Shown piece after piece: positions 4,263-64,000 of a stretch of 64,000 nt of DNA. The translations under genes and the position numbers were made by a program. Source of the stretch: Deuterostichococcus epilithicus (taxonomy: Eukaryota; Chlorophyta; Trebouxiophyceae; Prasiolales; Stichococcaceae); NCBI GenBank assembly GCA_033439295.1, contig JAVTLE010000008.1, positions 62,001 through 126,000 of the forward strand, read 5' to 3'. The notes below the pieces were generated by a model. It was not told the origin of the DNA. It worked only from the letters and a program-made list of their open reading frames with translations, and ran no database searches. Numbering within the stretch: the stretch's first letter is position 1; each line of letters starts with the position of its first letter.

Positions 4263-4296
<34 letters not shown>

Positions 4297-42100: not shown

Positions 42101-43116
42101 GGCAGGGTTTCCGTCAGTAGGCACTGCCACGTCACTCTAACAGCAGTCTTGAACGATGCAGAGGAGCTGACCGTCTGATCTGGCGGATTCTGAGGATGGA
42201 GCAGCCCGATCTTGACAACGCAGTGCAAGGCGATCTCGGAGCCCAGAAGACTCGTTGACAAAGCCAGGAGTCCACAAAGCTGTCCTCAAGCCAGGCGCGT
42301 ACGACAGCCTTGTATAAACCAGTTTCAATTCAGCCACTGCCGCACAAGCTGGCGTCGGCTTGGGCCGCTCTGCGCTGTTGCATCCGAGAGCAGGCAGCAT
42401 GTGGGATGTGCATCCAGCGCAGGCTGCAGTTGTCGAGTCTGCAGCAGGGGGCACAAGCAGATTGCAGACACACCACGTCAGCAACCGGCCTTGCGGAAAG
42501 CATTGGCCATTGCTGGCGCAGTGCTAGTAGAACAGCATCGGCTACCTTCACTCAGATAGTCGGCATGCAGTAGCAGCAGACCTGCGCATGCTCCGAAGCA
42601 TCAGCAGACCCGACATCTCCAAGTTGCCGGTGATAGCACCGGTCGTGCTTGCGTTTGCCCGCAAAAACGCCGCTCGACACATCGCTCTCGGCCACTTTGG
42701 AAGCGTATGAAGTGATTTGAAGGCATCTCCCAGGCTGCACAGCCATTCCATCTTGGCAGCATATGCAGCCAGTGCAGCCATTAAGCATCGGCCAAGCCTT
42801 CGCTGTACCGCAGCCTGCGCGCCTTGGCGAGTTTCAGCCGATAATGTGGCGAGATTGACGCATCTGAGGCAGTTGTCACACTCGTGGCGCCCCTGGAGAC
42901 CCCATCAACTTCAGCCTTTTCAGATCGTTCAACACACGTTTCAATTGTCCGGTAGCATAGTTAGACAGCCTCTCTCGTGACGTGCAGCCGCTCCGTCCCT
43001 GAGGCGTGCCATGAGACCTGCTGATCTGCGATCGAGCTCTTCACGGTGCACCAGCACTGCAGCCTGACGCCAGCCTCGGCCTCGGCAGCGGCCGGCTGCA
43101 ACGCGAACCAGCCCGC
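42101..43116. promoter_or_regulatory. Divergent promoter region between NC2-alpha and TPS1
   Basis: About 1 kb between two start codons pointing away from each other (42100 minus, 43117 plus). It must hold both promoters and 5' UTRs. A minus-strand frame at 42548-42781 is short and unsupported. No core motif could be assigned. Confidence 0.55.
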
Positions 43117-46100
43117 ATGTCGGAATCTGGCCTGAGCCGGTCTGCCAGCGAGACCTGCGTCCAGGATGTCGATGCCCAGGACCCGCAGCGCGACGGGACC
43201 GATGACACGGTGCGCCAGCAGCGGATTATGGTGTCAATGCAGGGTCAGCAATTGACACGCGTGAATGCAGACGGCCTGTGTGACCATCTCAGTTGAGCGC
43301 CACAAAAACGCCGACGTCATGCGCAGGCAGTGCCTGCAGCCCGCATGATAGCAGCGCATGGCACTGGCACAAAGTTCACCAGCAATTCCTCGTTCCACAG
43401 CGACAGCAATCGCTGCTCTGCACCAGCTCCATTTGCCTGCCAACCAGTGTCACCTCTGTGTCTAGGTGGGCACGCAGTCGGTGGGCGATGCCGACGAGCG
43501 CGGCTCCATGGTCAGCCTGGCGACGGGGCTGCAGTCCGTCGGCAGCGGCCCGCCGCGCACAGTCTCCACTTCCCGTGTCGGTGCGACGAGCCTATGTCCA
43601 TGCAGCTTGCTTTCACGCGCACAGCACAGCTCCAATTTGCATCCGGAAAGGAGTTCACATCAGGACCGCGCATGGCAGCGGCTCTGCAGGCTGACTGAAT
43701 CTCACCGGCTGACGCCTGTTGCATCCTGGCAGTGCATCGCTCAAACGGTCGGAATGCACCTGTCCAGCCATGAGGTGGCCCAGTGCCGATGCGTCGGTCA
43801 AGAGTCCCTGCAGGTTTGCAAATCTTTTGCCCATTGGAAGTAAAGCATGCACTTTCGCGTGCAGACCGGCTGCTGCTGCAGCGGCTGAAGCGCAGCCAGA
43901 GCCAGACGCAGCTGTGGGGCGACGCCGCGCCGTCGCTTCCGCCCGCCGCGCTCGCCTCGCAGGCAGGCAGCAGCGCTGCTGCGGCGGCGCCGCCGCCTTG
44001 GGTTGGCGGCAGCTCTCTCCTGCCATCCTCAGCCAGCGCCTTTCTGGCGACCAGCCAGCCGCCGGCGTCTGCCACGGCGACCGCCACGGAGCCGTCGGAG
44101 ATGTCCGCAGCCACGTCGGCGCCCGGCGCAGCGTCGTCCCGCGAGCCCGGCGGCAGCGCCGCCCCNCGCTCGGCGGCGCCGGTGGTGGCGCGCCGCCGCC
44201 GCTGAACCTGCACGGCAGCGGCGGCGGGATGCAGGGGTCGGACCAGCTGCCGCAGCGGCTGCTGGTGGTCGCCAACCGGCTGCCAGTGTCGGCGTACAAG
44301 GACAAAGAGGGGCAGTGGCAGTTCGAGGTGCAGAATTCCGATGAGATGAGCGGGTTGCCCCGGCCCTCCTCCCTCTCCCCTCCTCCACGTGGGCTTGCTT
44401 GCAACGAACTTGGCGCCGCTGCGTCGGCGGCTGTTGACAGCGACGCGGGGGGCTGCTTCACTTGGCCAGGCGCTCGGTGCAGGCTGCACCGGGCCGTAAC
44501 GGCCGGAGCGCATCCTGTAGATGGACAACTGGTCTGGCATTCCTCAGGCGCCAGACACATTTGCGCCTGCATTCGCCTTGCATCTGCAGTCGCACCCAGA
44601 GCTCTGCTGCACCTCTGACACAATGCAGCCTTTAACATTCCAATCGGAGTCCTCTGACACCACAACAGAATGACAGGCCTGCAGCACCTCAGGAGAGGTG
44701 GGGCTAGCCGGCAGTCGCACAGCTGCACATCTTGGAATGGGCTGACCTACCTCCTGTGCAGTTCTGTGCGCCTCCGAGTGCACTCCGCGTTCGCACAGCT
44801 GCCTCGAAGTGTTTCGATGCCTCCTCTGTGCAGGTCAGCGCGGGCGGCCTGGTGTCGGCGCTCATGGGCGTCCACAACTTTCGCGCCACCTGGATCGGCT
44901 GGCCGGGTGCGCTGCTTTGCGAGGTCTTGCTGGACGAACTGTCACAACGAAGTGCAGTCCAAGAGCTCCGCAGTATCAGCTCACATGACCGCAGCCCCTG
45001 TGGCGTTGCTGGCCAGTCGGCCACCCATCTTCTGTGGACCGAGACCGGCTGGGTTGTTGAACCCTGAGCCCAAGGCGGCGTGCAGGTGTGCATGCAGAGG
45101 CCAGACCAGCATCACCACGCAGCTGCTCTCTGGACCTATTACCAAGCATCACTTCTGCGCCCCAATCAAACCGCAGGCGTGTACGTGGAGGAGGGTCCGG
45201 ACCGGGACAACCTCACGGCGGCGCTCAGCAAAGAGGGCTACATACCCGTCTACCTGGACGAGAAGACGGTGCGCAGCCCCCCGCCAAGGGGAATGGAAGA
45301 GGGGAAGTGAAAGCTTTTTCAATTCCCCGTGCCCCTGCGAGACCTGCATGTGCCAGGCTTGCTGGTGGATGTCGATGGGCAGGGCCGCTCACCATTGTTC
45401 GGGAGATGCAGTGGATGCCGGGAGGGCGCCGCTGCGCTCAGCGCGTCTCGGAGCACTTGGTGCATTGCTCTTTGAACCTGCTGCCCTGGTGAACAGGGAA
45501 ATCCTTCCTTCAATCTCCATTCCGTGCAGCCTCGCCAGTGCCCAGCGTCGCCGCATCGCGCCGCCCCCGGCGCTGCGGCTGCAGCATGTTGGAGCGCCCG
45601 GCCGACTCCATGTTCTCAGAAAATCCTGCCCGACTGCTCCAAACCCTGACACCCCTCCCATCAGGTGGATCTGCACTACAACGGCTTCTGCAACAGCGTA
45701 CTGTGGGCACTGTTCCACTACGTGCCCCTCAACATCGAGACCAAGCTGTCCGAGACGCGCACGCTGCAGTTCCAGTGGGCCGCCTACCAGGACGCCAACC
45801 GGTGCGTGATGACCCTTGGGTTTTCCGGGCTCCGGAAGCCGAGGGTTTCTGGAGGGGCTGACACCCTTGAAATTGCTGGAACCCTGTGAAAAGCTGCGAT
45901 GCCCACCAGCTGCATCGCACACGCTGCAGAAGTCGAACTTCAGCAGATGCCGGTGCACAGCTGCAGAGGGCCATGGCTGCTGTCAAATGCCAAGCTTCGC
46001 CTGCCAGTCCTAACAGCAAGAAACACTGGCTCTGTTCCCTCCACCCTGCAGCAAGTTTGCGGAGGGCGTGTTCGACATCTACCAGGAGGGGGACGTCGTG

Positions 46101-49100
46101 TGGGCGCAGGACTACCACCTCATGCTGCTGCCCGCGATGCTCAAGAAGCAGCACCCCAAGATGAAGGTGCGGCGTGAATTACGAGCCACGTGCACGCATG
46201 GGGGTTGTGAGGCAGCAGTCGCAGTCGCTTCCCTGGCAACACAGTGCAGCCCATCCCGGGGACCAGCCTGCAGGCGGGTTGGTCCGTCCCTGCGCACGCA
46301 CGTAGCACCAAAGTCGGCTCATCAAGCACCCACAGGCCTGCTGCCCGCTTCTCGGCGGTGGGTCAGTCGAGCCCTGAACTTCAAACCCTGAACCTGGCCC
46401 CGGACCCCCCGAGCAGGTGGGCTGGTTCCTGCACACGCCCTTCCCCAGCTCCGAGATCTACCGCACGCTGCCGGTGAGGGAGGAGGTGCTGCGGGCGGTG
46501 CTGCGCGCCGACCTCATCGGCTTCCACACCTACGACTACGCCCGCCACTTTGTGTCGGCCGGCACCCGCATCCTGGGCCTGGAGGTGGGTCGGGTTGGGG
46601 GTCGCCCCTGCACCGGCTGCTGGCACCTCCTGCCGCACGTCGCTCTCTGCAGGTGGAACATTCCTGCGAAAGCAGTGCAATTGAATGCACGGAGCATGTA
46701 CCCATCAAAAGGCTGTCGTCGGAGTAACCCATCCATTGGATGTTCGTGCTGCAATGAAGCTCCAGCTGTATCAGAGGGCTGAGAGGACAATGGCAGCCTG
46801 ACGCCACAGCACAAAATACAAGTCCCAACTCGGGCCTTTGTGGTTGACCTCCTGCAGGGCACCCCGGAGGGAGTGGAGGACAACGGCAGCCTGACGCGCG
46901 TGGCGGCCTTCCCCATTGGCATCGACCCGGAGCGCTTTGCAGCGGCACTGGAGGAGGACTCCGTGCGCGCCTCGATCGCGCAGCTGCTCAACAAGTACGC
47001 CGGGCGCAAGGTGAGGGCTGGAACAGGTCAGCTGACATGAGGAAGAGGACTCTGTCCCGCGCCTCAATCGCGCAGCTGCTCAGCAAGTGCGCTGGGCGCA
47101 AGGTGAGGGTGGAAACGGGTCACGCCGGGACGTTGAGATGGGAGGTGTTGGGAGGGAAACCTTGTGCAAGCCAGCACCGCGCAGCAGCTCCGCGAGCATG
47201 CCGGGCGCGAGGTGACAGCGGCGGCCGGTGGAAGCTCTCGCAAAGTGTGTGTGTGCTGGCAAGGATGGGATGATGCGGTTCTCTGCGAGCGTCGTCACGC
47301 AGGACAGAGATTTGGTCTGTCTCTCCTGTGTGAAAACGGCGCTGCGCGCTGGCAGTGTGCGACTGCTCGACAAGAAGCTGTGCAGATCCGTGGTGAAAGC
47401 CCCCCAAGCCCATTCGCTTCCTGTGCATGGGGCCGTGCATCCGCATCATGGGCTTGCAGCCACTGCCACAAACTGTAGGATTGAACCAGCCGTGCACGAA
47501 GCCTTTGCAGGCGTGCAAAGAGCATGCCCGTGAGGCCTGCTCTGAGCGACTTGTGTGTGATTTTCGCTCACGGCATCGACAGGAACGTCTTTCGCAAGCA
47601 TCAACCATCGAGCTCGCAGCAGCAGGGCTTGACTTGCCCAGACTGACGTCAGGCAGATCATGTTGGACGCAGACGAGTGCGAGCAAACAGAGTGTACCCT
47701 GGATTTTACCCTGATGTCACACTCTCTCCTGCCGCCGAAGGTCATGCTGAGCATCGATTGGCCGGACTACATGTTCCCAAGGACACTGCGCGGGACGTAT
47801 TTTAGCATCTTCGAGGAGAAGCTGAGGACCCTTAACCCTACCGTGCCCGGCGCAGGTCGTGCGGGGCGACTACCGGCCGCGGCGCCAGATATGGCAAAGA
47901 ACCCATGAAGTATGACCCTGCATCCCCAGACGCGGCCACCAATGCTGAGTCCTCCCCTGAACCCCAAACCATGAATTCCGCAGGTCATGCTGGGCGTGGA
48001 CCGCCTGGACATGATCAAGGGCATCCCGCAGAAGCTCCTAGCGTTCGAAAAGTTCCTGGAGGAGAACCAGGAGTGGCGGGACCGGGTGCTGCTGGTGCAG
48101 ATTGCGGTGCCCAGCCGCACCGACGTGCCCGAGTACCAGGTGCCTTTATTGGTTTTGAACCAACATGGTCGACCGTGGTCGTTCTGCCCTGGGCACCCTG
48201 CCTCCCCTCTTCTGGATGCTGTGCCCCGGAGGATCGGCCCTGGAGCGTGCCTGGCGCGGCTGCCGCTGTCGAGCAGGGCCTGTCCGGCGGTGTGTGGCGC
48301 AGGCGGCCTTCAGGGTTCACGGTCTAGGGTTTAGGGTTGCATCAGGCACAGGGACCGACGGCGCATCTGGCTGGGCATGTGTCCCAGCTGCCGGTGCTGC
48401 TGTCAGAGCCTGCAATCGTGTCGGCCTTCGGCAGCAAGTCATCCAGCTGGGGGTGGCAGCATGACTTGCAGCCCATTCTATTGCCAGCTTGAAAGCAGTG
48501 CCGTGCCGGGGGTCCCCTTGCCGCACGCAAAAGCTCCAACCTACCTGCGAACCGGCGCTGCCTGCCAGGCGGCCTAAGCCAGCCTGTGCATGCTCGACTG
48601 CCCTGGGGCATGCCTGCCCGTTGCAGTGTGCCGACACGCCCACTGCAGGCCCATATACGGCAGCACACGATTGGCACTCACGTTTATGTCCCCCTGGTGC
48701 AGCGGCTGCGGTCCATGGTGCACGAGATCGTGGGCCGCATCAACGGGCGCTATGGCACGCTCACAGAGAACCCCATCCACCACCTGGACCGGCAGCTGTC
48801 CTTTCACGAGGTGTGCAGCGCATTCCCTGCCAAAGTTCACTTTGAACTGAAAACACATGCCAAGTCCTTGGGGGAACCTTTCGAAGGGCATGGTTTCGTC
48901 GCTGCCATGTGTCCCAGCCACCGTGCCAGACCCAACTTTGGCGAAACGGGATGGGCGATGTCTTCCCAAGGCTGAAGTCTTTCACTCCGTGGGCATGCAC
49001 GCTGTGCGCCATGTTGGCTGGTGCTGGTTCAGCCTGCAGGACGGCAGCTCATGCCAGTGTCGGACGAAAGGAGCTCGAGCACTCTGTCCAGGACGAAACC

Positions 49101-52100
49101 TACAAGCTGAGCGAATTTCCTTGCACCCCGCAGCTGTGTGCGCTGTACGCGGTGACGGATGTGGCGCTGGTGACCAGCCTACGGGACGGCATGAATCTGG
49201 TGTCCTATGAGTACGTTGCCTGCCAGTCTGACAACGCTGGTGCGTTCTCGGGCTGCTTGGGATGTCTCTTCCGAAACAGATGGCGCCCTCGCAAAGCCAG
49301 CGTGTTTCTGTGCCATGGGTCTGGTGCCGTGGGGTTTCGGGCGCCAGCAGCAATGCCACAGGAGACGCTTCAGCTGCTTGGCCCATGACCCCGCCGGCGT
49401 GAGTCTCCTCCCCAGCGGGTTTATGTCTATGGGCGCCTGTTGGGCTGGCGTCCAAGGAGACGACGCACGAGCCGCATCGCGAGGAGCCTGTGCGTGCGGG
49501 GCTGCCCAACAGCAACGTGCACATACCGAGGGAGGAGGCGTTCCTGTTGCGCAAGTCCCAGGCGTGCTGGTGCTGTCGGAGTTTGCGGGTGCGGCGCAGT
49601 CCCTGGGCGCCGGCGCCATCCTGGTCAACCCCTGGAACATCACCGACATGGCGGCCGCCATCGAGGACGCCCTCACCATGTCCGAGCAGGTGTGATCCAA
49701 AATACCATATCGTGTCATCCATCCGGCCTCCTGCCTGATGCATAGCAGATGCCAGCATGCCGCGGGCCGTGGGGTCGTGACAGGTTGTCCACAGAAATGT
49801 CAGGTCAACGTTGATCACTACATATAGGCAGGACAGGAGCCTAGACAGTCACACTCAGGCTTGTGACTGATTGTCCAGGCCGAGGGGATGTCACCCTTTG
49901 AAAGGGGAGCGGCACTTGTCAGGATCGCATGCGTCTGTGTTGCGCTACATGGCGATTCCCCCAGGGTGTGCGCTCTAAACCCTGTTCTGTTGCCCCCAAC
50001 AGGAGCGGCGGGAGCGGCACCGGCAGAACTACATGCACATCACCATCCACACCAGCCAGACGTGGGCGGACACCTTCATCAGCGAGCTCAACGACACGCA
50101 CGTGGAGGCGGAGCTGCGCACCCGCCACATCCCGCCGCTGGTGCGCCCGCCCCCTTACACCCTTATCGCTTTTGTGATGACACGGCCAAAATTCGGGCAA
50201 CACAAACAAGCAAGTCGGGCTGCATACCTGCCACACCCCGCCGCTGGGGGCGTTTTGGCCGAGCATCTGTTTGATGAAGTGCCTGGAGTCAGGTCGACCC
50301 GTCCTCGCCTGCACAGCCAGCTCAGCGAGCTGACATCAGTGACGCGTCCTACACTGCGGCTGGCAGCCGTTCCTGCAGCAGGGTGCGCTGCTGTTGAAGT
50401 TCCTAGGTCAGACCTACCAACACCTGGACCCCGCAGCTGCGTGTGGAGGACACTAAGTGCAGGGACCGAATAGCCGCCCGACGGGTGCGGGAGGAATGTG
50501 AGCAGGTTCATCACAACACGATTTAGACCCTGAGGACATCGGCGGCGGCCATGCCCGAGGAGTGGCGTGCCCAGCGGCCGCACCTGCTGCCAGGTTTACT
50601 CCATCGGAAACCCACATGGGCTTGATACCCATAGATGATCATCGGTGCTCACCTGCGGCTGAACGTGGGAGGAGGTGGTGCAAGAGTGCCAGGTCGCCTC
50701 AAAGCGGCCTCAACTGCTGGCAGTCTCTCAATCGGCTTACCTGGGCTTGGTACATCTTCACTTGTTGTCACACCTGCAGCTAGACGTGGAGGAGGTGGTG
50801 CACGAGTACCAGGTCGCGTCCAAGCGGCTGCTGGTGTTTGGCTACAACGCGACGCTCACAACGGGGGTGGACGTCCCCCGGCAGCAGCCCAAGCGCCACT
50901 TCGACAGCCTCACGGTGAGGGGACTGCTGTGCGGGAAGCGTTTTCGTGAAATCCTAAACCCTGATCACTGTCATGACTCTGGACGGCAAGCGCATGTGGC
51001 ACTTGCAGCCTAGCTAGCCCAGCGCAAACAAATCGTGATTGATGAGGTTTCGTCAGACGATCGGTATCGGAATGGCATACCAATTCTCAAGCGAATCGTC
51101 ATCGGCCATGGCTCGCTGCACTGGGCTAGGCTGCAAGCGACTTCGCACCCGGCGGTCCAGGCGCATGGCAGCCCGAGCGCCACCCTGCGGCGGCTCCGCG
51201 AGCGTGGAAGCGGCGGTCTAACCGCGGCCTTCTCACTGATGGCTGCTACATGGCGTTAGCGATGCAATGGGCATTGGATCCCTTGCATTTGTGGTTTGCA
51301 GCCTGGAACAGGGTTTCGGGGTGTTGGCCTGCCGCGCGCTCGTCCTCTAGCAGGGCTGCGCTCGACGGCATCACAAGCCAGGGCTGCAAGCAGCAGCGCT
51401 GGGCGTTGGAGCTCCTTTGGCGTCCACGTGTGCCCCGACGCAGCTCCCGAAGCATGGCGCCATTTGTGCTGCGCCGCCCAGAAAAGCGTGCCCACCCACA
51501 GGCGCACACCAAACCCTAAAACCTTCAAAACTCTGAGGGCGCCTGCCCCCCTGTCGGCTTCCAAACTGTGACCACACCGTTTCTCATGTCCGGCGCGCGC
51601 AGTCGATGGCGCGCGTCAACCCGCAGACGTACAATAGCATCAAGGGCCTGACGGAGGACCCTAACACCGTCATCGTCATCTTCAGCGGCTCTGCCAAGGT
51701 ATAAACTCTAAAAACTTGACACACTGCGGTGCTGCAGCAGGGTTTGGGTGTTGTGTCCGTGTCTGCGTTGCTCCCGAAGACCACCAGCTGTGAAAGCGCT
51801 GCACCCACTGCCACCCACAGCAACAGGCTCTCTCCCCGAAATTGGCCCGACTGCGTCGGGCCAATTCCCCAGCCGCACTGGGGCATCGTGATGGTGTCAC
51901 AGATGCCTGATAATGGCTGTGAAGGGGGTCTGAATGTCGGAACAGAATCGCTGGGTGCACGCCTTGATGTCGCCCACCACACCTCGTCAATTTTGAGACT
52001 GCTGCTGTCGTCGCAGCTTACGGTAACCAGCTGACATGATGCGCCACACATGGCCCGTTTCCGTTAATGCTGTGTGAGGTTACATTGCGACGATTGACCA

Positions 52101-55100
52101 GTGGTGTCCTTTACCTCAAAACAGGATCAGCTTGAGGAAACGTTCGGCGCGTTGTCGGTGTGGCTGGCCGCGGAGAACGGCATCTTCATGCGGCCGCCGC
52201 CGACCGCCTCAGAACCGCACCCGGTGCGCGGTCTCCTTTCCTATAGACACAGTTTCAAAAACAGGATCTCGTCCAATGGAAGAGAGTGGATGCAAGCGCT
52301 GACGCCGGTGTCTGGCCACTGTACTGCTGTCCGTTCTTGCTTCAGTACGTCCCGTGTACCGCCAACTTGCAGAGACGGGTCCAGGTGAAAGAGGGAGCGG
52401 ATGGAGGATGGAGGCAGCAGCAAACCCTGACCCTGATCTTCCCAGCGCTCATGTCTGTCCGTTTCTCGGAGCGCATGCCGTGCTGCTCTCGAGGAGAGCA
52501 GCTTGAGCTGCAATGTGACTGAGGTCGACAAGGGCCACTCTGCCTCCCTGGGCACACTGCAGAAGTGGCCGTGAAGGAGTGGATGCAGGCGGTGGCGCTA
52601 CGGCTGCTTTCCTCCTGCCGATGCATGTCGTCATGCTGGAGTGCCGCTGCCGGCAGGACCAGGCCCGCTGGTGGACGTCAGGAACTGGATGGGCGGCGGT
52701 GGCGCTGGCGTGCGACGCCTTCCCTCCTGCCGAGATACATGCCATCATGCTGATAGAAAGATGCTGCTGCCGGCAGGACTGGGTCCCGCTTGTGGACGTC
52801 AAGAAGAAGGAGTGGATGGAGGCGGTGGCGCTCGTGTTCGACTACTTCCGGGAGCGCACGCCTAGGTCCTTCGTGGAGCCGCGGGAGGCGTCCATCGTGT
52901 GGAACTACAAGTCCGCCGACATCGAGTTTGGCCGCCTGCAGGCAGGCTTTGTTTCAATATTATCATTTTATGACAATGTATCCCATTCAGCGCTGGTTGC
53001 GGGTGCCAGCGGCAGGCCCCTGGACGCCTTTTTGCTGCTTGTCGGAGCTGCAGCGTCGCAAGGCCGGCTCAGGCCTTGCCTGCAGCGACCGGTGGTCGTT
53101 GCATCAAAGCCTGTTACGGGTCTGTGCATGCTGCAGCTTGGACAACATCGCTCGCTGCACAAGACTTGCGTCCCTGCTGTGCCTCGCCCAATCTACTGAC
53201 TTGGGTCGTGTCCTCAGGCTTGCGGTGCCCGCGCTGTAGGCTGTGCAGCTCCTGGCACTGCCTGCATGACGGCAGAGTTTTGACCGCCAACCTGTTGCTC
53301 GCCTCCTCTGGGCACATCCTCGAATTCTTGCCTGCTTGCATTTTACTCTATCTTTGTTTTCACAGGCGCGTGACCTGCTGCAGCACCTGTGGACGGGCCC
53401 CATCAGCAACGCGCCGGTCGACATAGTGCAGGGCTCCAAGTCGGTGGAGGTCCGCCCCGTGGGCATCTCCAAGGTGCGCTGACTTGTCATCCGTAATCAC
53501 AAGCCTGACGCGAGCCGCAGAGGACGAGCCCGCCTGCTTCCTCGGATGCCCATGCCATCTCGATAGGGAACTCACGCACGCAAGGCTGCCTGGCGAAGGG
53601 TGCAGCACAAGGCTGAGCCACTGCGCCGAAGGATGTCCTCACTGTACATGGGCGTACCTGCAGCCGTTCGAGCCTCCTTGCCTTTCACCTTTGTGCAGAA
53701 GCGAATTGCCATGAGATGCCATTGCGCTCCCGGTCTTGGGAAAATTGATGTTTTTACTCCCCCTGCAGGGCATCGCCATGCAGTCCATCCTGCACGCCAT
53801 GGTGGAGCAAGGTGGGGCGCCGGCCATCGACTTCGACTTCGTACTGGTAGTCGGCCACTTCCTGACGCGCGACGAGAACATCTTCACCTTCTTCGAGGTG
53901 AGCAGTCCTTCCCCATGACGTTGAGCTCGTCGTGAAGACGGGACGCGGTCACTGACGCGGCCTTCCAGATGCAGGGTGCCAGGAGCAGCGCATGGCCGCA
54001 GCTCATCCGCGACATGCATGGAGTCTGGCATCGCTTCTTGGCGTACCAGCTGCTGGGTGTCGCCTGCTCGAGCTATGTGTAAAAGCCTTACTGCGCATGG
54101 CCCCACAGGCTACTATAGCCCGGCGGGAGAGGATTGATCAGACGCGCCCTGGCTGGTCTGCTCTGAAGGTGTTTTGTGCCAGACAGCCTTGGAGCTCGCT
54201 GAAGGGGGCAGCTTCTTGTCTGTATCAGGGTTAGGGTTCGGCACTACCAACCCCTTTTGTTGGCGGTGGCGTCCGGCCGCCAGCTGCCAGTCCTGCCCCG
54301 AAGTCTCACCCGCATCGTGCTCTGTGCCGGCGCAGGGCCGGGCCACTGCTAGAGGGCGAGGCTGGCATTGCGGCGGTGCTGTGATGAGGGCTTGCACATG
54401 CTGCGGCTTAGTCTGCAGTCGATACAGCCTCCTGCTTTGTGGGGTGCAGGGCCAGACGGTGCTTGAAGGCAAGGCGGGCATGGCGGCAGCGCTCTCGGTC
54501 ATGGGGAGTTCCGCGGTCAGCCTGCCGGCGCTGGCGCAGCTGCCGCACAGCGGACCGTCGATGCAGCGCCTGGCGGAGGAGGCGGAGTCGGCCACCGAGT
54601 CCGGCGGTGGCAGCAGCTGCATCCTGGCGCCAGGCGAGTCCCCACCAGCTGGATGGCTGCAACTGCTAGCTGCATTGCGATGGCGTCACAATACGGCTTG
54701 CACTTCGTGAATCTCGCATGCAAGACGAGAACCCAGCTCTGCTTCCCTGATTTCATAAGGGATAAAGACCGCACACGCTGGTCGGCCTGGCATGCGGCGG
54801 TCTTGGCTGGGGCTCAGTATTTGCCTGCTGTGGTACAGGCGGCGAGCCGCTGATCGCCAGCCCGCTGTCGGCCGCACCGGGCTACGTCAAGGCCGCGGCC
54901 GCGGCGCCGCCGGCAGTGTCGCCGCCCAAGGCCGGGCCGTTGGCGTCCGTCGCCGAGCACACCAACGCGGCGGCGGCATTGGCACGGGAGAATGGGCTCG
55001 CCTCGGCGCATGGCTCGGCGTCCGCCCTGGCCTGGGACGCCGGCAGCATCTTCACGAAAGACAGCTCCTCGGCGGCGCAGCAGGCGTCAGGGCCGCCGGC

Positions 55101-57406
55101 GGCGGAGCAGCAGTCGGTGGCGCAGCGGCTGGCGGCGGTGCAGGCGGCGGCCCGCGAAGCGGCGGCGCGGCACGCGGCGGCGGCGGCGGCGGAGGCGCCG
55201 CAGCTGCCGCCGCCGCCGCTGCAGCTGAAGCGGGAGCACAGCGCGCCGTCCGTGATCCAGGCGGGGAGCGCCGGCGCTGCAGGGGGGCTGCCGGCTCTGT
55301 CGCGCTACAGCATGCTGGCGGCGTTGCCGCCGGGCGGCGTGGACCGGTCGGGTGGCTCGGGCATTCCCACCCTGCAGCGCGACAGCATGCCGGCCGCCAT
55401 GCCGGTGCGGCTGCCCGTGCGCTTACTCAACCGCTTGGACCCAGATTCCCTGCGCTGTTGGCAGGTCCCTGCTCCTCAGGGGCTCACACGATAAGCGATG
55501 TGGTGTGACGGCAAACCACAGCAGCGGACCTAGGTGTCTGGCCAACCCACGTTGGCAAGGTGGGCATGCGCTGTCGCTGGGAACTGGCGCTGCCACGATC
55601 GGTGACGGCCCATGCTGCTGGGTACTGTGCGCCCTGAGGTCTCACTGCTGTCGCAGCAGACAAGGCGGAAAGCGCTGACGTTCCAGTGTCATATGTGCAC
55701 AAGTGTCATGACGAGGCATGCCACATCGGGCTCCGAGGAGCCATAAGTCAATTTTCTGCGCCCACACGTGTCCAAGCGTGCGCCGCCGCATCGTCGGCTT
55801 CTGAGCATCCCAAATCCCGCCGCCGCAGGGCGGACCCAGCCTGCACCGGGACAGCGGCCAGAGCAAGGGCAGCGCCACGGCAATCACGGCACCGCTGCCA
55901 TCCAGTGTGCCGCCCAGCCCCGCGGCCGGCAGCTCCGCGGCGCGCGCCGCCTTCACCTCCAGCGACCTGCCCTACAGCCAGCAGCTGCTAGCGGCAGCTG
56001 CGGCGGCGTCGAGCCACCCGCAGCCGCAGGCGGCGCGGCTGCCGCCGCGGCGGGCGCCGCTGCCGGACGGGGCCCCGCGCCTCAACCAGTTCCCAAGAGG
56101 TGCCCCGATCCTCATGCAACAGTGACACTGCCGCAACTCACAGCATCAGCGCCGGGCGGTGCTTCCAGCCGCCCGCGCGGCTGTTCCGATGCGCGCGCGC
56201 ATGAGCCGTACTTCCCTCCTGCATGCGTCCTGTTTGATGCAGCACCCAGCATTTTTGGGATTGCGTGCTGTGCGTCGCTCCTGCGCCAATATGGCACATG
56301 CACTGCGAGCTGCATCACACACGGCATGTGCACGGTGTGCTGATGCTCTTTCGAGGTTTGGGTCACAGGCGATGGCCGGCTGCCGGGCGACCACGCATCG
56401 CCGCCCATGTACATCCCCGGCAGGCGAGTCCAGTAAACCTTGTCCTGGACGGATGCACTTGTACCACCCCTACTCCCGGCTGGCTGCCTGCCATTCCTGC
56501 CATGCTGCGCTGCCCTGCCAGCCCGCATGCCTCGCCAGCGTCCAAGCACTCGTGGGCGGCGCCTACCGTCCTAGCGATTTGTGCACGTTGGCGATGCTGC
56601 GGCCTGGCGGGGCGTGCCTTGAATCTTAAATTCTAACATCTGCATGTGCAGTGCGATTAGGCCACCGTGGCAGCATCTGCATGTACAATGCTGTGTAGCA
56701 ACTGCCCACCGCCCACCGCGGCGGCTCCCGCCTCACGCAGCCCCCCGCGCCGCAGTTTTTGGCCCCCTGCGGGCAGCGCCCCAGCAGCTGCCAGCAACCT
56801 GTCTCAGGATGCAGCCCCTAAACATCCTGCCACCCTGCCCAGGTCGAACAGCGTGCCGCTAGGCGCCGACCGGGGCGACCTGCGCATCGGCAGCGGGCCG
56901 CCTGCGACGCCCAACGGCGGCACGAACGTCTTCTTCAACTCGGACTGCGACCTGCCCATGCGGCTGCCGCCGGAGCACTTGTACACCTGCACCGTCGGCC
57001 GCCAGCGATCACAGGCCAAGTGCGTGTCCTGTCCCCTTGACCGACTCAGTCTGGGACCTGCCGAGTTTGGCCTGCCGCGCGAGAAACCCCAACCCTACAC
57101 CCTACGCTTGCACCCTCGGGCGCAAGCGCTCGCAGGCCGACTGCGCCTCCGCTGCGGCCCGCTGCAGCGCGGCCTGTGAGAGGCAATGCCAAGAACGCTG
57201 CCCCTGCAGCTGCTGCACGCACCGCCTGCCGACGGTCCTGCCCGGACAGGTCCTCGGCGGCCGCCATGGCGTGGCTGCCAGGCAGACCAATGACTCGATG
57301 ACTTGTGGTTGTAAGGGTCCAAGCGCTGCTCCTGCGCAGGGGCTTCCTCAACTCGTCCGCCGAGGTCGGCACGCTTCTGGCCAAGCTGGCCAACCGGCGA
57401 GTGTAG
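43117..57406 (+). CDS. TPS1: Class I (TPS1-type) trehalose-6-phosphate synthase with inactive phosphatase-like domain
   Basis: Makes trehalose 6-phosphate from UDP-glucose and glucose 6-phosphate. First exons: 43117-43209 ([17 protein letters not shown]), 43467-43590 and 43863-44327. The GT20 domain shows [166 protein letters not shown] and [20 protein letters not shown]. The phosphatase-like domain has [11 protein letters not shown] where active TPPs have DYDGT, and [15 protein letters not shown] instead of GDDRSDED. Plant TPS1 carries the same loss. [20 protein letters not shown] and [13 protein letters not shown] match TPS1. A low-complexity region of several hundred residues (about 54450-56960) precedes the TPS1-type C-terminus [12 protein letters not shown]...[10 protein letters not shown], stop TAG 57404-57406. 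An N at 44165 breaks the frame in exon 3. Confidence 0.95.
46783..46900 (+). repeat. Intronic echo of the downstream TPS1 exon edge (spacing 93 bp)
   Basis: GAGGACAATGGCAGCCTGAC at 46783 lies in the intron. GAGGACAACGGCAGCCTGAC at 46876 is coding (EDNGSLT). One base differs over 20. Confidence 0.85.
46960..47217 (+). repeat. Two intronic echoes of an upstream TPS1 exon end
   Basis: The exon ends [15 protein letters not shown] followed by the donor GTGAGG at 47011. Near-copies follow at 47058-47108 (reading [15 protein letters not shown], again before GTGAGG) and, weaker, at 47170-47217 ([11 protein letters not shown] before GTGACA). The GT positions lie at 47011, 47103 and 47212, so spacing is 92 and 109 bp. 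Confidence 0.85.
47739..48035 (+). repeat. Two intronic echoes before the TPS1 exon [12 protein letters not shown]
   Basis: The real exon begins AG|GTCATGCTGGGCGTGGAC at 47984. Earlier copies begin AGGTCATGCTGAGCATCGAT (47739) and AGGTCGTGCGGGGCGACTAC (47854). Spacing is 115 and 128 bp. The first copy still reads [12 protein letters not shown] against the exon's [12 protein letters not shown]. Confidence 0.75.
48324..48337. repeat. Two telomere-like TTTAGGG heptamers in a TPS1 intron
   Basis: TAGGGTTTAGGGTT lies within the intron following [11 protein letters not shown]. Opposite orientation to the copies near 26830, 50953, 51511 and 61842. Confidence 0.85.
49002..49195 (+). repeat. Intronic echo of the TPS1 exon carrying [16 protein letters not shown]
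   Basis: A stretch at 49002-49055 (ends TGCAGGACGGCAGCTCATG) aligns with gaps to the coding 49143-49195 (ends TACGGGACGGCATGAA). Spacing is about 141 bp. More diverged than the other copies. Confidence 0.55.
49898..50045 (+). repeat. Intronic echo of the TPS1 exon starting [10 protein letters not shown]
   Basis: GGGAGCGGCACTTGTCAGGA at 49905 resembles GGGAGCGGCACCGGCAGAAC at 50010 in the exon, and both continue into an ATGCRY-type stretch. Spacing is 105 bp. Confidence 0.6.
50651..50835 (+). repeat. Intronic echo of the TPS1 exon [16 protein letters not shown] (spacing 120 bp)
   Basis: ACCTGCGGCTGAACGTGGGA with GGAGGTGGTGCAAGAGTGCC (from 50651) is repeated 120 bp later as ACCTGCAGCTAGACGTGGA with GGAGGTGGTGCACGAGTACC, the acceptor and start of the real exon. 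Similarity runs about 60 bp. Confidence 0.85.
52255..52850 (+). repeat. Array of decayed echoes of the TPS1 exon [18 protein letters not shown]
   Basis: The real exon begins near 52776 and includes GAGTGGATGGAGGCGGTGGC (52810). Copies are GAGTGGATGCAAGCGCTGAC (about 52284), GAGTGGATGCAGGCGGTGGC (about 52578) and a GGATGGGCGGCGGTGGCG form (about 52687). The preceding block CGGCAGGACC at 52651 and CGGCAGGACT at 52771 are exactly 120 bp apart and both continue into TGGACGTCA. The whole 560-bp intron is largely built of such copies. Confidence 0.8.
56978..57155 (+). repeat. Duplicate of the penultimate TPS1 exon end (spacing 121 bp)
   Basis: The exon TACACCTGCACCGTCGGCCG (56982, reading [14 protein letters not shown]) is followed 121 bp later by TACGCTTGCACCCTCGGGCG (57103, reading [14 protein letters not shown]). 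The second copy still reads the motif and may be an unused or alternative exon end. Confidence 0.85.
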
Positions 57407-58560
57407 CTGCTGGTAGGTTTAGGTAGCCGGCGCAGTACGCAGCCGCTGTCGGGGAGCCATCACATGCGGTCGCAGCGCACCGGCGGCGGCACGGAGGCAG
57501 TCACATGGCCTGCCCATCCAGGCCGCCAGGCTGTGCAATAGTACACCTGCTGCAAGGGAGGGCAGGCAGCACGCTGCAGCATGCTGACATAAAGGCAGGC
57601 TGCCAGGATGCCGCCGCAGCTCGCTGCGATGCGGCTCGAGCCGTGGCGTGCCTGGCATTGCAGTGCCAGCAGTGAGGTGACAAGGCGCTTCATCTAGCAT
57701 GGCGGCAGCGCAGTGGGCTTGCCAGGCACAAACGCCTCGCTGTCGCCAAGATAGTAGATTGTTTTCGGCAGACAGGGTGCTCGAGCGCCAGTTCATTGTC
57801 CCAGCGTGCGTGATTTCAGCTGACGCCAAATGTCCAGTGGCCTCACTTGTGAATGCGTGCGATCTAGCGAGGGACTCCAGGATGTTCGAGAGCAAAGTCG
57901 CGGTGTGAACAGCGAGTGACTTGATGAACTTGAAGCCAGCGTTCAGATGTTCGGGCAGGCCATAAGTGCAAGAACAGAGGAGCGATGAACCAAGTGCAGA
58001 CAAGTACCCATCATGCGGCGCTTGTGCACAGGCAGGCCTGCTTCAGCTTTGATTTCAAGGTGTTCAATCAAAGATAGGTACTCACATCGTTGCAATGTCA
58101 CTCACAAGTATCTGTCCAACGGTGGGACTGATAAGCCATCAGTGCCGACTCTGAACAGAGATAATACGGGAAAAAAATTTGTCGCACTGCTCTCCCCATT
58201 GCCCCTCACATCTCCAGATGTCTGATGGCTCAATTGAATCTCGCGATAGGAGGTGCTGAAGGCCTCTCTTCGTCACAAGCCAATGACTCACCCTCGCGAA
58301 TACGTTTGCAATGCTGGCCGAAACCCCGACCGAACCCACCCCCAAAATTGCGGCTGCTCCGCCTCAATGCGCCGCAGGCGCCGCCGCTGAGAGCGGCAAT
58401 GTTGCCGGCTGTTGTGCGCATCGGCGCCCACGAACGACCGCGTAGCATGCCCTTGTCTGGTGCGTCTGCCGGCTGACGGTGCCGCCGAGGTGCCTCCGAG
58501 GACGCAGGCACCATCGTTCCATCACGCTACGCTGCCCAGTCGCTTCGTGTGAAACGGTTT
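57407..58560. other. Convergent spacer between TPS1 and sucrose phosphorylase
   Basis: About 1.15 kb holding the 3' UTRs of both genes. I see no clear TGTAA on either strand and no convincing additional gene. Confidence 0.5.
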
Positions 58561-61500
58561 TCACTCGTCGGAGCTTTCCCCGGCGGAGCTGTCCCCGGAG
58601 GGCGCCGGGTCAGCAAACTCCTCCACGTGGTCCTCCAGGTCGCAGCGCAGCCCCAGCAGCAGGTCCGTGGGCACCAGCTCGTTGTCGTCGAGGCTGCTGC
58701 GGCCCCAGCTCAGCGTCTCGTCGTGCAGCTCAAACCTGTGGCGGGCAAGTGAGAAGCTTCCGAATTAGCGCCCGGCGCGTCCGGCGCGTCCGCCAGCGTG
58801 ACCGCGGCACAAAAGGCAACCGATGCGGGTTTGAAGGCAAGGCGTGGGTGGCGGTGGCGGGTCGCCGCACGCACAGGATGCGGGCAGAGGCCCCCGACTC
58901 GTGCCACGCAGTCGAGCCAGGGCAGCGGCATCGGCGTTGGGATTGCGGCTCAGCGGCGCTTGCGGGATTGCGTCAAGGCAGGGTGAAAGGCTGGAAGCGC
59001 TGCGCTCGCCTCGTGGTGCGCTCGAGGTCGGCGTCGGAGATTGCGGACGCCACGACGTCAAAGGCGAAGGTCTCCAGGTTGGCGCACAGCGTCGCGTGGT
59101 GGCCGCCGTTGCGCCACGTCACCTGCAACAGGTGCTCCTCCCCAGGGTCCTCGTACTTGATGCCGATCTGCAGGGGAACGTGGGTTGTGGGTACACAACT
59201 TCTCAGCAACAGAGATATCGATTGCCGCCTGTCGCCTGCAGCATCGCCTGCAGCAGGTGCTCTATTCCCAGAGTGCTTGATGCGGATCTGCGGAGGACAT
59301 CGCGTGACATGATTTCTCAGCGATGGGGACGCGGTTGCCACGCCATCTGCAGCAGGTACTCTCCCGGAATGCTTGTTGCAGGTCTGCGGCGGGCTAATGC
59401 TGGGGGTGTACTAACGTGTGACACACTACAAACCCCTGCCACCCACGCGTCGCACGGACAACCTGGCAGAGAGGGCTGCGAGCGCCTGAGGGGCTGGAGA
59501 TCACACTGCCCCCCCGGGCGCAGTGGGGCCGGCGTGGCATGTGCGGCAGGGCGACAGAACCCTCAAACACTAAATTGCGCCCTGCGACACCTGTGACCTG
59601 CATACATGGGCCCGGCACCACGTAGTGGGCAGAGATTCCAAGTCCAATCTAGGCAGCCGCAGCCCACCTGGCCGTTGAAGGCGGGGTGCTGGTTGCGGAA
59701 GCGGCACAGCTGGTACAGCGCCTTGTTGACGGGGCGCTCCATCTCCTGAGCCGCCTCCTCCGGCGTGTACCGGTGCCGGTTGACGCCACGCGGCCCCTCC
59801 CGCGCGATGCCCTGCGGAGGAGAGGTCAGCGAGAGGTGAACCCTGAACCCTGAAGAGGGGCGGCCCCACCTCAGGTCCGCTGCAGTGCGAGTCGGGATTC
59901 TCGTGCGAGAGAGGTTCCTGAGAGGATGTCGTGTTCAGAAAGTCTGCTGCAATGTAGGACGAGTGATGGATTGACTGGACTCGGTCGCTTTTGACCTTCT
60001 TGTTGTTTTCAATAAATTGAGAAAAAAAGAACATGCATGGTCGACTGCGCGCACCTCCTCGTCATTGGCTCCACTGAGAAGGCCGACGTAGTAGACCATG
60101 GGGATGCCGGGAGTCCAAAACTGGATGGCCCTCGCCAGCAGGTATGCCTACAACACGATGGAACACTCCGAGAGTTGGAGGCTGCGGAAGCGGTAGTGCA
60201 GGTTGCAGGATCCAGATACGAATTGCGAGGGTGTTTCCTCAAATGCGCAGGGTGGCATTTATGGCCACAGGCCCGCAGACGGCTATTTTGAAACTCTACG
60301 CTGCATGAGGCCATCTCAGAAGTTGAAATGAGTGCTTCAAACGCACCCGCGGCGACTCGCTGCAGGCAGAGAAGTAGGTGGCGTTGTACTGGTGGGGAAA
60401 GCCCTTGTACTTGCCGCCCTCCCGCTTGTACTTGAAGTTGGGCAGCGCACCCAGCTGGTGCTCCACCACTTCCTGCAGCTCCTCCACGTGACACACCTGC
60501 CGACAAACGCGGATGATGCTCAGAGCTTCAGCCCCGCCGCAGCGTTTCGGCACTTCAGGTGAGTGAGTTCAGTTCCCGACGCCGGGACTGGTGTGTGCTG
60601 CGTCCGCCATCCCCACCAGGTCGTTCTGCTGATCATCTATGGCTCCTGATGCAGAGTTCTCTCGTGTCCGGGCGGCACTGGAGTTTGCTGGCTTCGGACG
60701 CCTGCCTGCTGTGTGCAGCACCATCGGTGCAGAGCCTATCCCGTGTTATGGCCCATGCAAGCAGCTCCGCCAGGAGCGAGCCCTCGCATACGTGTTGATG
60801 CTCCGCTGCCAAGCCACCCACACCTGCTGAGGGATATTGAGTGTGCAATGCTGCGGGGCGACGCCCCTTCTGAAACCAGATGATGGGACAGAACCCTACC
60901 GAGGCCAAGCCCGCGATATCGTCGATGCCCATGCCATCGTGCGTGTCGAGCACCGTGATCTGGCGCCGCGGACAGATGCGCAGCCAGTCCCGCAGCACGT
61001 CCCCCGTCTTGAAGTAGAATGCGTGCAGCACCAGGAGTGGCAGCGCGAAATCATACACCTGCGGTGCAGGCCCACGGTCAGCGACCCTGAAAGCCCACCA
61101 CAGCCTGCGACACCACTTCGTTCCTCCAACTGTAGATTCCGGCGCGGGGGGGGTTCGGGGGCAATGTTAGGACGGTCAGCAGCCGCCTGGCACGGGGCGG
61201 TGCGCAGCAAATGCCAAGTGTGCGGCAGGGTGGTGCACCGGGTTGCTGCCGGCAGCATGCCTGTCCGGCTCAGGCCTGAGTGGCGCACCCAGTAGCCATG
61301 GGCAGCCAGTGTCACGTTGAGCTGGAAGTCTTCGTGCACCTCGCACAGCAGCCTGCGAGCAGGCAAGACACGTGATACCGCAGACTGTTTCGGACAGTGC
61401 TACTTTTGTGAATGTGGCTGCTGAGACTGCCTGCCGGCCCAAAGTGCTCGGCGGCGTCAGGTGCTGACGCACTGGAAAGGAGTGCCCTGCTCGTGAAGCG

Positions 61501-64000
61501 AGCCTGCCGCTGGCCACGCCGGCGATTGTGCATGGAAGTGGCGATGGCAGGGCGTCGCCGCAGGCTGCGGCAGCGGCGGCCACATCCTTCGCCAGGTCGC
61601 CAACGACCCAGGCGGCAAGTCGACAGGCGGTTTGCTGCTCGGCTTCCTGGGGCTTAGGGTTTGCACCTGGTGCCGTGGTCCTTGGCGATGGTGTTGAGCC
61701 GGTCCAGCAGCTCCCAAACATCTGGCTCCTGCATGGAGGATACCAGATGTTAGGTGTATGCTCTGCGACAGACACGCGGCAGGGCTCCCGCTCCAGCACA
61801 GGCGCTCTCCTGTGCAGGGCGTCCCTGCCCAGATCCTAGACCCTAAACCCTCTGTTCTCAACACCTCTGCATCTCAACACCATCAAAGGGGCAGCGGTGG
61901 GCTCGGCAGGCAGGGCCGCGGCGCACCTCGAAGAAGCAGCGGGTGCCGGCTTTCTTGGTTGCGTAGCCGAACGCGTCCAGGCGCACGACCTTGGCGCCCG
62001 AGCGGCACAGCGACGCCAGCGAGTCCTCCACAAACTTGCGGCCTGCAGTCCCATCTAAGATTGGTTCGGCGCCGTTCTGATTCGCATGTGCATGCTGGAC
62101 GTGTCGCAGTTCCTGGCATATCGCTGCGGCTTCAGTCACACGGGCAGGCGCAGACATGGTGATAAAAGGTGACATCAAACAGGCGTCAGGTGGTCACTGC
62201 AGGGTTCCTCTTGGACAGGGGCGGCATGGACTTCGTTGACAGGCGCGTCGTGCAGCAGTGTGCCACACAACAAACGCACCCGGAACGGAGAACGGGTCGA
62301 TGTCGATCTGCTGGGCGCCAAAGGTGCACCACACACGGCGGGTGCTGCCGTCGCCCATGGTCACCTCCAGCACCGGGCGCTCGGGCTTTCGGGTGCGGAT
62401 CTTCATCAGGTCCTCCTCACTGGGGTCGCCTGCACCAGCCAGGCGACTCCATTCAAGGGGAAAGAAGCCCTGGGGTGGCCTCGACAGAACGGACTGCGCT
62501 TGGATGGAGAACCGACGCAGCCCGTCGCCGACTCCGTGAGTGGACGAGCGCTGCTGCAGGCGGCTAGCGGTCGCGCACCTCCAGCTGCTGCTGAGGCGGC
62601 GCACAGCCGAGGGCCCGCACAGGGTGTGCATGCTCTGACGGAGGCCAGCAGCCGCGTCTGCGTTTGCTGGCCGCACGGAGGTTTGCAGGGAGGGCTGCAC
62701 CGACAGCTGCCAGCGCCTCACCGCCCGGCCAGAAGGCGTCCCAGTCGACGAACATGTCCGCGAACTCGGAGTCGTCGCCCTTCGCCAGAAAGTCCTGAAA
62801 CTCGTGCGAGGCCGGCGATATGTGGTTGACCATGAGCTCCAGCTCCAGGTCTACCTTGTCGGCCAGTGCGCCAACATCCTCCCAGCTTCCGAGCCGCGGG
62901 TCCACCTCCTGCGCAGGCAGATGGCATATATCAGGGTCAGGCGTTGACTGGCACACAGACCTGAGACGACTATACCGGCTATACGCGTGAGCTTCAGAGC
63001 TCCATTGGGGCTGATCCGGAAGGCTCCCAGATGCTGCACGCCCACAGATGTTCGCTTGGGATTGCCGCCGTGTTGTCTGGCAGACGCAGGAGAGCACCAG
63101 GGTAGCCTGGTGCCTCTGCAACCGAGAAGAGGCAACATCCCCTGCCTGATAAGTGATGGGTGCAAAGCCGCCATCCCCTGATGACGGGTAAATGGGCAGC
63201 AGGTGCAGCCCCGCCACCACGCCTGTGCCGAATGACCAACCCAAAGATGAAGCAAACCGATAACTCGACTCACTGGGTCTGTATTCTGTGTTCTACATCA
63301 CAGGAGCGTGGGTGCAGTGCCGGCACAGGCCTGCCGTGTGTGCAACTGCAAGTGCAAGTGCAAGGTTGTCTGGGCTGACTCACCATCCAGGTGCTCGTCC
63401 ATGAACCGCCGCAGCGTCGGTAGGTCCGACCCGATGGAGTCGGCATAACAGCTCAGCTGCACCTACACGAGCGAGGGCGCACCAGGGTCAGGCGGTGCTG
63501 TCGGCGCTGGCTGCACGGCGCGACTAAGCCCTGNATGACCGCCAGAACGAGAGGGGGGAGCACAGTNTTGTACGCAGTGGGCTGCCGCAGCACGAGGCAG
63601 AGGCTCTGGCGTTCAACAGAGGCTGCAAAGGCGGCCATGGACTCGCCTGGTTGCGCAGCCGGCGCTGGGGCTTCTTGGTCTCAAACGCGGTGTGGCTCGG
63701 GAACGGGTTGGACTCCTGGTCGAGGAGGGTGGCGGCATCGACATTGCTGTCGAGGGTCGGGCTCGCCGTTTCGGCTGTGCCCGAAGGCGCCGCCACAGCG
63801 CCATACGCGCTGTCAACCACTGCCGCCTCTGCAACGGCGCTGTCGGCGGCAGCCCGCGGCATGCACACTGCGCCATATGCCCGGCGTGGGCGGCACGTCC
63901 AGCCCGCATGAAATCTTGCCGGGTGACCGCTGGCGTGCTTCAGCGGCAGCGGCTGCCGCAATGGGGAGCCATCGCTGCGGTACTGGTGCGGCGCCGCCTG
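58561..64000 (-). CDS. Sucrose phosphorylase (GH13 subfamily 18), 5' end at or beyond the window edge
   Basis: Phosphorolyses sucrose to glucose 1-phosphate and fructose. The first visible exon (about 63647-63961) is Ala-rich and may be a targeting leader. It joins [20 protein letters not shown] (63391-63462), then [20 protein letters not shown] (63150-63215) and [20 protein letters not shown] with [20 protein letters not shown] (about 62750-62910). Next come [15 protein letters not shown] (62290-62340), [20 protein letters not shown] (nucleophile Asp, 61935-61995) and LLCEVHEDF (acid/base Glu, about 61330-61356). [20 protein letters not shown] and [15 protein letters not shown] (about 60915-61060) follow. 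[32 protein letters not shown] and [20 protein letters not shown] complete the family order, which matches Bifidobacterium/Streptococcus sucrose phosphorylases as I recall them. Stop TGA 58561-58563 after an acidic tail ([12 protein letters not shown]). The donor at 63646 is GC. Two Ns (63534, 63567) are intronic. About a dozen introns argue for a resident eukaryotic gene. Confidence 0.92.
59115..59395 (-). repeat. Two intronic echoes of a sucrose phosphorylase exon start
   Basis: On minus the exon begins CAG|ATCGGCATCAAGTACGAG (exon start 59170). Copies in the intron upstream of it carry GCAGATCCGCATCAAGCACTC (59265-59290 region) and a weaker one near 59390. On plus, CTTGATGCCGATCTG and CTTGATGCGGATCTG are exactly 120 bp apart, and the third copy (GCTTGTTGCAGGTCTGCGG) another 96 bp on. 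Each also carries the CAGGTGCTC/CAGGTACTC part of the exon. Confidence 0.85.

Follow-up and report, generated by a model that had tools for sequence, protein, structure and literature searches.

The stretch of DNA analysed here, 64,000 nucleotides of contig JAVTLE010000008.1 (C7) of the green alga Deuterostichococcus epilithicus (assembly GCA_033439295.1, positions 62,001 to 126,000; hereafter the window), carries two genes whose introns contain decayed copies of the edges of neighbouring exons, and these copies, which we call echoes, are the subject of this report. One is a TPS1-like gene on the + strand (43117-57406), for which a two-strand hidden Markov model (HMM) predicts 27 exons once an echo at 47076-47102, called as an exon by the model, is removed. 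Its predicted product showed a complete GT20 domain (PF00982, E 4.8e-181) and most of a trehalose-phosphatase domain (PF02358, E 1.9e-41) in a Pfam search whose query ended at 909 aa. The other is a sucrose-phosphorylase-like gene on the - strand (58561-64000, continuing past the window end), which was delimited by the HMM together with a PDB match. No Pfam family was found for it at E 0.001 or better. Its best PDB match is 7qqj (E 1.8e-112), solved enzymes matched over about 415 residues, and its nearest relatives among the solved structures bear the name of sucrose phosphorylase or glucosylglycerol phosphorylase. The identities that a first-pass annotation of the window had given to the two genes, namely TPS1 and sucrose phosphorylase, are hence borne out by the domains and by the relationship to 7qqj, respectively.

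The clearest tandem duplication lies across the donor site 47010/47011 of TPS1, where Tandem Repeats Finder reports a 92-bp unit in 1.9 copies (46950-47122, + strand). Here, the block 47058-47122 repeats 46966-47030 at a lag (the distance between the copies) of 92 bp and retains the motif GTGAGG, and it is followed by a second serial echo at 47151-47215, 201 bp from the exon and 109 bp from the first echo. The same 973-bp intron (47011-47983) holds at its other end two echoes of the downstream exon head, at 47735-47767 (of 47978-48010, lag 243) and at 47851-47875 (of 47979-48003, lag 128), and self-comparison thus agrees with the earlier observation of echoes on both sides of this intron. Elsewhere in the + strand of TPS1, heads of downstream exons are echoed at 46774-46804 (of 46867-46897, lag 93), at 49000-49046 (of 49141-49191, lag 141 in a gapped alignment), at 52573-52723 (serial echoes of 52785-52849, lags 233 and 120-126) and at 54347-54380 (of 54460-54493, lag 113), and tails of upstream exons at 50200-50247 (of 50094-50141, lag 106) and at 57044-57150 (of 56938-57029, lag 106-121 with an internal indel). 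A longer echo at 50590-50708, whose start is approximate, corresponds at lag 120 to an intron end plus exon head (about 50720-50828), with the intron half homologous in a gapped alignment; this alignment also suggests an older additional copy from about 50561, which carries no separate score. In the sucrose-phosphorylase-like gene, the exon 59049-59167 is echoed at 59244-59365 (- strand) at lags of 120-125 and 223-224, and in another gene of the window the exon tail 4203-4268 has an echo at 4048-4113 (- strand, lag 155).

Ungapped self-comparison of 43,001-60,500 at a score of at least 13 gave 21 exon-intron repeat segments at lags 70-259, several of which can belong to a single echo, against 4, 2 and 3 segments in three control lag ranges of equal width. 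The exon-border echoes in adjacent introns that the first-pass annotation had described are therefore real, and most of its spacings were recovered as well, namely 92 (46966/47058), 93 (46774/46867), 96 (59245), 106 (50094/50200), 109 (47069/47178), three times 120 (50668/50788, 52642/52762 and 59153/59273), 121 (56982/57103 and 52664/52785), 128 (47851/47979) and, in gapped form, 141 (49000-49046/49141-49191). A listed spacing of 115 equals the difference in lag between two echoes of one exon (47735 and 47851, lags 243 and 128), and those of 105 and 127 were not separately recovered at the thresholds used.

The window was complemented with 240 kb from 17 places on 16 contigs, giving a sample of 304 kb (0.65% of the 46.8-Mb genome with its 21 contigs), and all comparisons were made within this one genome. 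Genes were predicted ab initio by the two-strand HMM, trained on the 304-kb sample itself, which superseded one-strand models that had fused adjoining genes and which yielded 56 gene models with 626 introns (median 230 bp) and clean predicted splice motifs (donor AG/GTGCG-like, acceptor GCAG/G, the slash marking the junction); family checks were confined to the TPS1 and sucrose phosphorylase models. Each exon edge was then compared with its own adjacent intron at a score of at least 18, which amounts to 1,252 tests. A match was found in 54 of them, compared with 18 of 12,520 tests against length-matched introns of other genes, i.e. an approximately thirty-fold excess for the own intron, with 5 of 3,242 against non-adjacent introns of the same gene, and with 5 of 1,252 against the reverse complement of the own intron. 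The comparison with non-adjacent intron-exon pairs had been proposed in the first-pass annotation as a possible refutation, and it does not refute the pattern: unrelated, non-adjacent and reversed introns alike fall far below the own intron. The excess is seen in the window alone (10/246 versus 6/2,460 for introns of other genes), outside of it (44/1,006 versus 12/10,060), and outside of it after removal of the richest block, on contig C19 (24/822 versus 11/8,220). Direct repeats outside the window, counted irrespective of gene models, are likewise elevated at all lags below 160 bp with a peak at 120-139 (21 segments), over a background of about one segment per 20 bp of lag at 400-1,000.

The echoes are clustered by gene (over-dispersion p = 0.0014), with 8 matches in the 27 introns of TPS1 and 15 in the 33 introns of a gene on C19 (L017/L022, C19:200001-215160), whose motifs suggest that it may encode a chromodomain and cytosine-methyltransferase-like protein. 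Some echoes in the latter gene are so intact that the HMM includes the same exon edge two or three times in its spliced model. A further case was met in a 2.4-kb stretch of contig C13 with a TPS paralogue (L026, C13:830601-833000) that had been obtained by homology for an intron comparison and not for its repeats. It contains a 61-bp, about 90% identical echo ahead of an exon at lag 103. The intron concerned interrupts the coding sequence at roughly the point where TPS1 has its echo-rich intron 47011-47983. Since the paralogues are only 40-56% identical in the matching pieces, the events in the two genes were probably independent. As to the literature, exon-edge echoes in algal introns appear neither in the titles and abstract openings among the matches listed nor in the covered part of the Coccomyxa genome paper; we make no claim that the pattern is unpublished.

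In ungapped plots, the echoes appear as repeat blocks of 40-65 bp with sharp ends, separated by an unmatched spacer. However, in 12 of the 19 best-preserved pairs (lag 80-180, identity at least 0.84, block at least 30, score at least 20) the spacer is homologous, on one side or on both, to what lies beyond the other copy (p <= 0.01 against 200 random intron stretches each), although some of these 12 pairs sit in multi-copy arrays. Five gapped alignments further revealed that the duplicated unit continues on the intron side, where changes and indels are more frequent, and the junctions between the decayed copies are blurred. Because most spacers of the best-preserved pairs are homologous to the sequence beyond the other copy and the spacers share no family in the sample, the echoes are most simply read as head-to-tail tandem duplications with a unit equal to the lag. 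That the copies are direct, adjacent and head-to-tail is shown by the dearth of reverse-complement matches, by these 12 spacers and by the tandem repeat at 46950-47122. We thus regard both the existence of the pattern and its makeup, for the most part tandem duplications, as well supported.

The spacing of the 54 echoes has a median of 122 bp and is hardly correlated with intron length (r = 0.09). As many as 45 of them lie at 80-160 bp, compared with 13.2 +- 2.9 under uniform placement in the same introns (maximum 24 in 2,000 trials), and the spacing distribution, which according to the first-pass annotation should have a peak, hence has a strong one. Once corrected for detectability, a procedure with little power below 80 bp, the sizes are level from 80 to 140 bp, about threefold lower at 140-160 and about sixteen- to nineteenfold lower at 160-200, so that the near-constant step that had been suspected does exist in the form of a characteristic step of about 80-140 bp. 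Longer lags are mostly composed of two such steps, as in 46950-47215 (92 + 109): of 18 exon-intron pairs at lags 190-320, 13 have another copy in between, a count made without a chance control. Two side observations, on which we base no claim, are a faint 10-bp period among the echo lags between 70 and 180 bp (46 lags; R = 0.30, p about 0.016 before any correction for the five periods tried) and the fact that the size band ends near nucleosome length.

Several explanations other than the decay of neutral tandem copies have to be weighed at this point. That the echoes reflect chance or the GC-rich composition of coding sequence has next to no probability in our view, as the excess at scores of at least 18, the near absence of matches in reverse complement and the spacing peak all speak against it, even if weak matches (score 10) are about equally common in unrelated introns. 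The sharp-edged repeats around an unmatched spacer could also be taken for a mobile element or introner flanked by a long target-site duplication. This is extremely improbable, because the spacer represents the remainder of the duplicated unit in the 12 pairs mentioned above and because 48 spacers share no common family and have only 10 matches of 14-19 bp (E 0.012-0.048) elsewhere in the 304-kb sample; the candidate of a long target-site duplication around a unique spacer was discarded on the basis of the spacer comparison and the gapped alignments. A third possibility, namely that introns are gained by tandem duplication of AGGT-bearing exon sequence, to which the first-pass annotation had linked the pattern, would leave an intron whose donor and acceptor regions match each other at a distance of one intron length. 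One candidate for such a birth exists at L013:8702-8869 (+ strand), where the start of a predicted 130-bp intron (L013:8714-8843) matches the start of the downstream exon at lag 130, both ends reading TGGCAG/GTGCTGCC (TGGCAG/GTG on both sides). Nevertheless, this signature was found in none of the 626 introns at a score of at least 16 (null 0/3,130), in one at 14 or more (null 1/3,130) and in three at 12 or more (null 4/3,130), i.e. without clear excess over chance, and introns with echoes far exceed the lag in length (median 392 versus 122 bp), which makes the proposed link very unlikely. Somewhat less remote, though still improbable, is that echoes are kept as alternative or decoy exons that regulate splicing. 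In its favour, the HMM takes some echoes as exons, and 23 of the 54 echoes still have the splice AG or GT in the corresponding place (10 of 22 on the donor side and 13 of 32 on the acceptor side, background 5.6-5.8%), as the first-pass annotation had noticed for several of them. In contrast, the lags modulo 3 are distributed 16, 20 and 10 (46 lags) and the reading frame is therefore not kept, and the mismatches between exon and echo differ little by codon position (129/699, 127/700 and 193/700 in ungapped matches, which were used instead of a count on gapped matches of 310/907, 337/920 and 363/912 that indels had distorted). There is thus little sign of coding constraint, and the decay of the echoes is nearly codon-blind, which is what a constraint on the exon copy only would lead one to expect.

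Since donor and acceptor matches at intron-length lag are not enriched, the sequence comparison points to duplications by which introns were lengthened and not created. The median length is 392 bp for introns with an echo and 222 bp for the rest, and among introns of at least 200 bp the medians are 411.5 bp with and 282.5 bp without echo, a difference of about one unit, although long introns also offer more room for an echo. The proposal of the first-pass annotation that introns grow by serial local duplication is supported by this difference and by the intermediate copies at long lags.

A question that arises from the catalogue is why the echoes hug the exon borders. At lags 80-160, exon-intron pairs outnumber intron-intron pairs 57:11 (57:14 if pairs brushing an exon are counted), and at lags 60-160 the count of 61 exon-intron pairs is higher than in any of 300 shifted annotations (mean 34.3); for intron-intron pairs it is 18, below the 37.5 of the shifts. 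This non-randomness could mean that duplication is aimed at exon-intron borders, for instance through splicing- or transcription-linked breaks, and it would fit with blocks that are placed at the splice site and include at most about 70 bp of exon and with the ratios near 1 that most simulated random placements produce. We nonetheless consider such targeting rather improbable, as intron-side homology exists, albeit decayed, and as the observed ratio is also attained by random duplications if these are old and indels frequent. In simulations with a unit of 120 +- 25 bp and 0.3 indels per substitution, random duplications gave ratios of 2.3 at ages of 0.15-0.25 and of 6.5 at ages of 0.2-0.4 substitutions per site, with short blocks roughly as seen; a fit requires units of narrow size and events that are for the most part old. 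The border-bound appearance can hence be explained by survivorship: exon-intron pairs would stay recognisable for longer because the exon copy is constrained, while two intron copies diverge twice as fast and gain indels, so that intron-intron pairs fade. A more serious, if still doubtful, alternative is a steady ongoing duplication whose young copies are lost by recombination or assembly collapse. Near-identical direct repeats are unstable, and well-preserved copies do occur (62 bp at 95%, 61 bp at 92% and 31 bp at 100%). On the other hand, random duplication with steady-state ages gave ratios of 0.9-1.3 and many blocks of identity at least 0.84 that reached 155-159 bp (median 44-85), whereas no such block exceeds 65 bp among the 27 observed pairs at lags 80-180; steady-state ages were dropped because they predict blocks that are both long and young, and nearly equal numbers of intron-intron and exon-intron pairs. 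The earlier suggestion that the copies differ in age is partly supported. Echo identities spread from about 0.65 to 1.0, with the highest over short stretches, but long well-preserved blocks are lacking and steady input fits poorly in the simulations.

Taken together, we think it likely that short tandem duplications across exon borders, with a unit of about 80-140 bp and a tail to about 160 bp, have lengthened the introns of this alga. The selective part of this scenario and the age of the events are our inference. A duplication wholly inside an exon would normally be removed by selection, while one across a donor or acceptor would leave the intact exon with a complete splice site attached, and splicing there would keep the protein. 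The spare copy, consisting of exon edge, splice site and intron end, would fall within the intron and decay neutrally, the intron would have grown by one unit, and the same border could be hit again. Purifying selection on the exon copy would then let exon-intron pairs outlast intron-intron pairs and give the echoes their border-bound appearance.

A number of points weigh against this interpretation. Seven of the 19 best-preserved pairs lack significant spacer homology. The exon side of the blocks seldom exceeds about 70 bp, which is shorter than uniform placement of a 120-bp unit would suggest. The simulated fit rests on chosen, unmeasured ages and indel rates, as the other eight fixed-age settings with unit 120 give ratios of only 0.9-2.7, and the scenario by itself does not account for the narrow size, which has to be taken as given, since exponential or uniform (30-200 bp) units do not resemble the lag histogram when judged by eye. 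In 38 kb of predicted non-genic sequence, no repeat pair was found at lags 80-160 where about three would be expected from the intron density, a difference that is not significant. Lastly, the exons are predictions of an ab initio model that sometimes includes an echo as an exon, as with 47076-47102 in TPS1 and with repeated peptides in the C19 gene.

If the detectability correction is carried further, it implies some 390-820 duplications within the gene models; in comparable runs, roughly three in four draws were accepted. At about 115 bp each, they would make up between about one fifth and two fifths of the intron sequence (176 kb), an estimate that depends on the chosen rates. One could go on to speculate that a past pulse of duplications, measured off in units of about 80-140 bp by some built-in ruler on the scale of nucleosomes or Okazaki fragments, wrote this share of the intron DNA, in which case a step of DNA repair or replication would have quantised the intron lengths and exon edges would serve as dating fossils; we regard this stronger version as less likely than not.

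With regard to the mutational origin, we consider it most likely that the DNA was broken in a staggered fashion, or nicked on both strands, at a distance of about one hundred nucleotides and was then filled in and end-joined, with slippage on the scale of Okazaki fragments as the main alternative. According to the portions of the literature considered here, overhang breaks that are filled in and joined yield tandem duplications (PMC8355091), and insertions of 10-1000 bp in rice are often tandem and were attributed to nicks during excision repair (PMC7407515). By analogy, such a route would fit the direction, adjacency and size of the duplications, which like those in the two reports are head-to-tail and tens to hundreds of bases long (median lag 122 bp). 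Those described here differ in that they are natural, affect many genes, keep to a narrow band of 80-140 bp and are apparently old. There is further resemblance to intron gain by tandem genomic duplication (PMC3443670; in Drosophila, PMC2891723; in potato RdRp, PMC4974935), in which a splice-site-bearing duplication likewise leaves a spare copy that is spliced out. There, however, an internal AGGT is duplicated, whereas in D. epilithicus a real exon-intron border is spanned and existing introns would be lengthened, with no enrichment of the gain signature. Tandem exon duplication with mutually exclusive exons (PMC9013439, PMC5224494) also repeats exon sequence in a neighbouring intron, but our echoes mostly copy just the exon edge, with blocks of 12-107 bp from exons that for the most part exceed 90 bp, and decay with little coding constraint. 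Introners and introner-like elements (PMC9860276, PMC4457414) add intron sequence in quantity as well, but in the 304-kb sample no sequence is common to different sites.

The conserved exon edge provides an internal reference by which intron duplications that are otherwise invisible become countable, and the comparison of an exon edge with its own intron, with other introns as a control, is applicable to any annotated genome. The question where the DNA of long introns comes from has mostly been answered with transposons. If the above estimate is true, a size-specific local duplication would have supplied much of the intron DNA in this alga, and the size band would offer a handle on the causative enzyme step. 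The results also carry a warning for annotation, as echoes with intact splice sites are easily called exons. Apart from the echoes, inspection by eye revealed short telomere-like motifs (such as CCCTGAACC, TAGGGTTTAGGGTT and AGGGTTAGGGTT) in introns at 46380-46405, 48318-48340 and 54226-54245 of the window.

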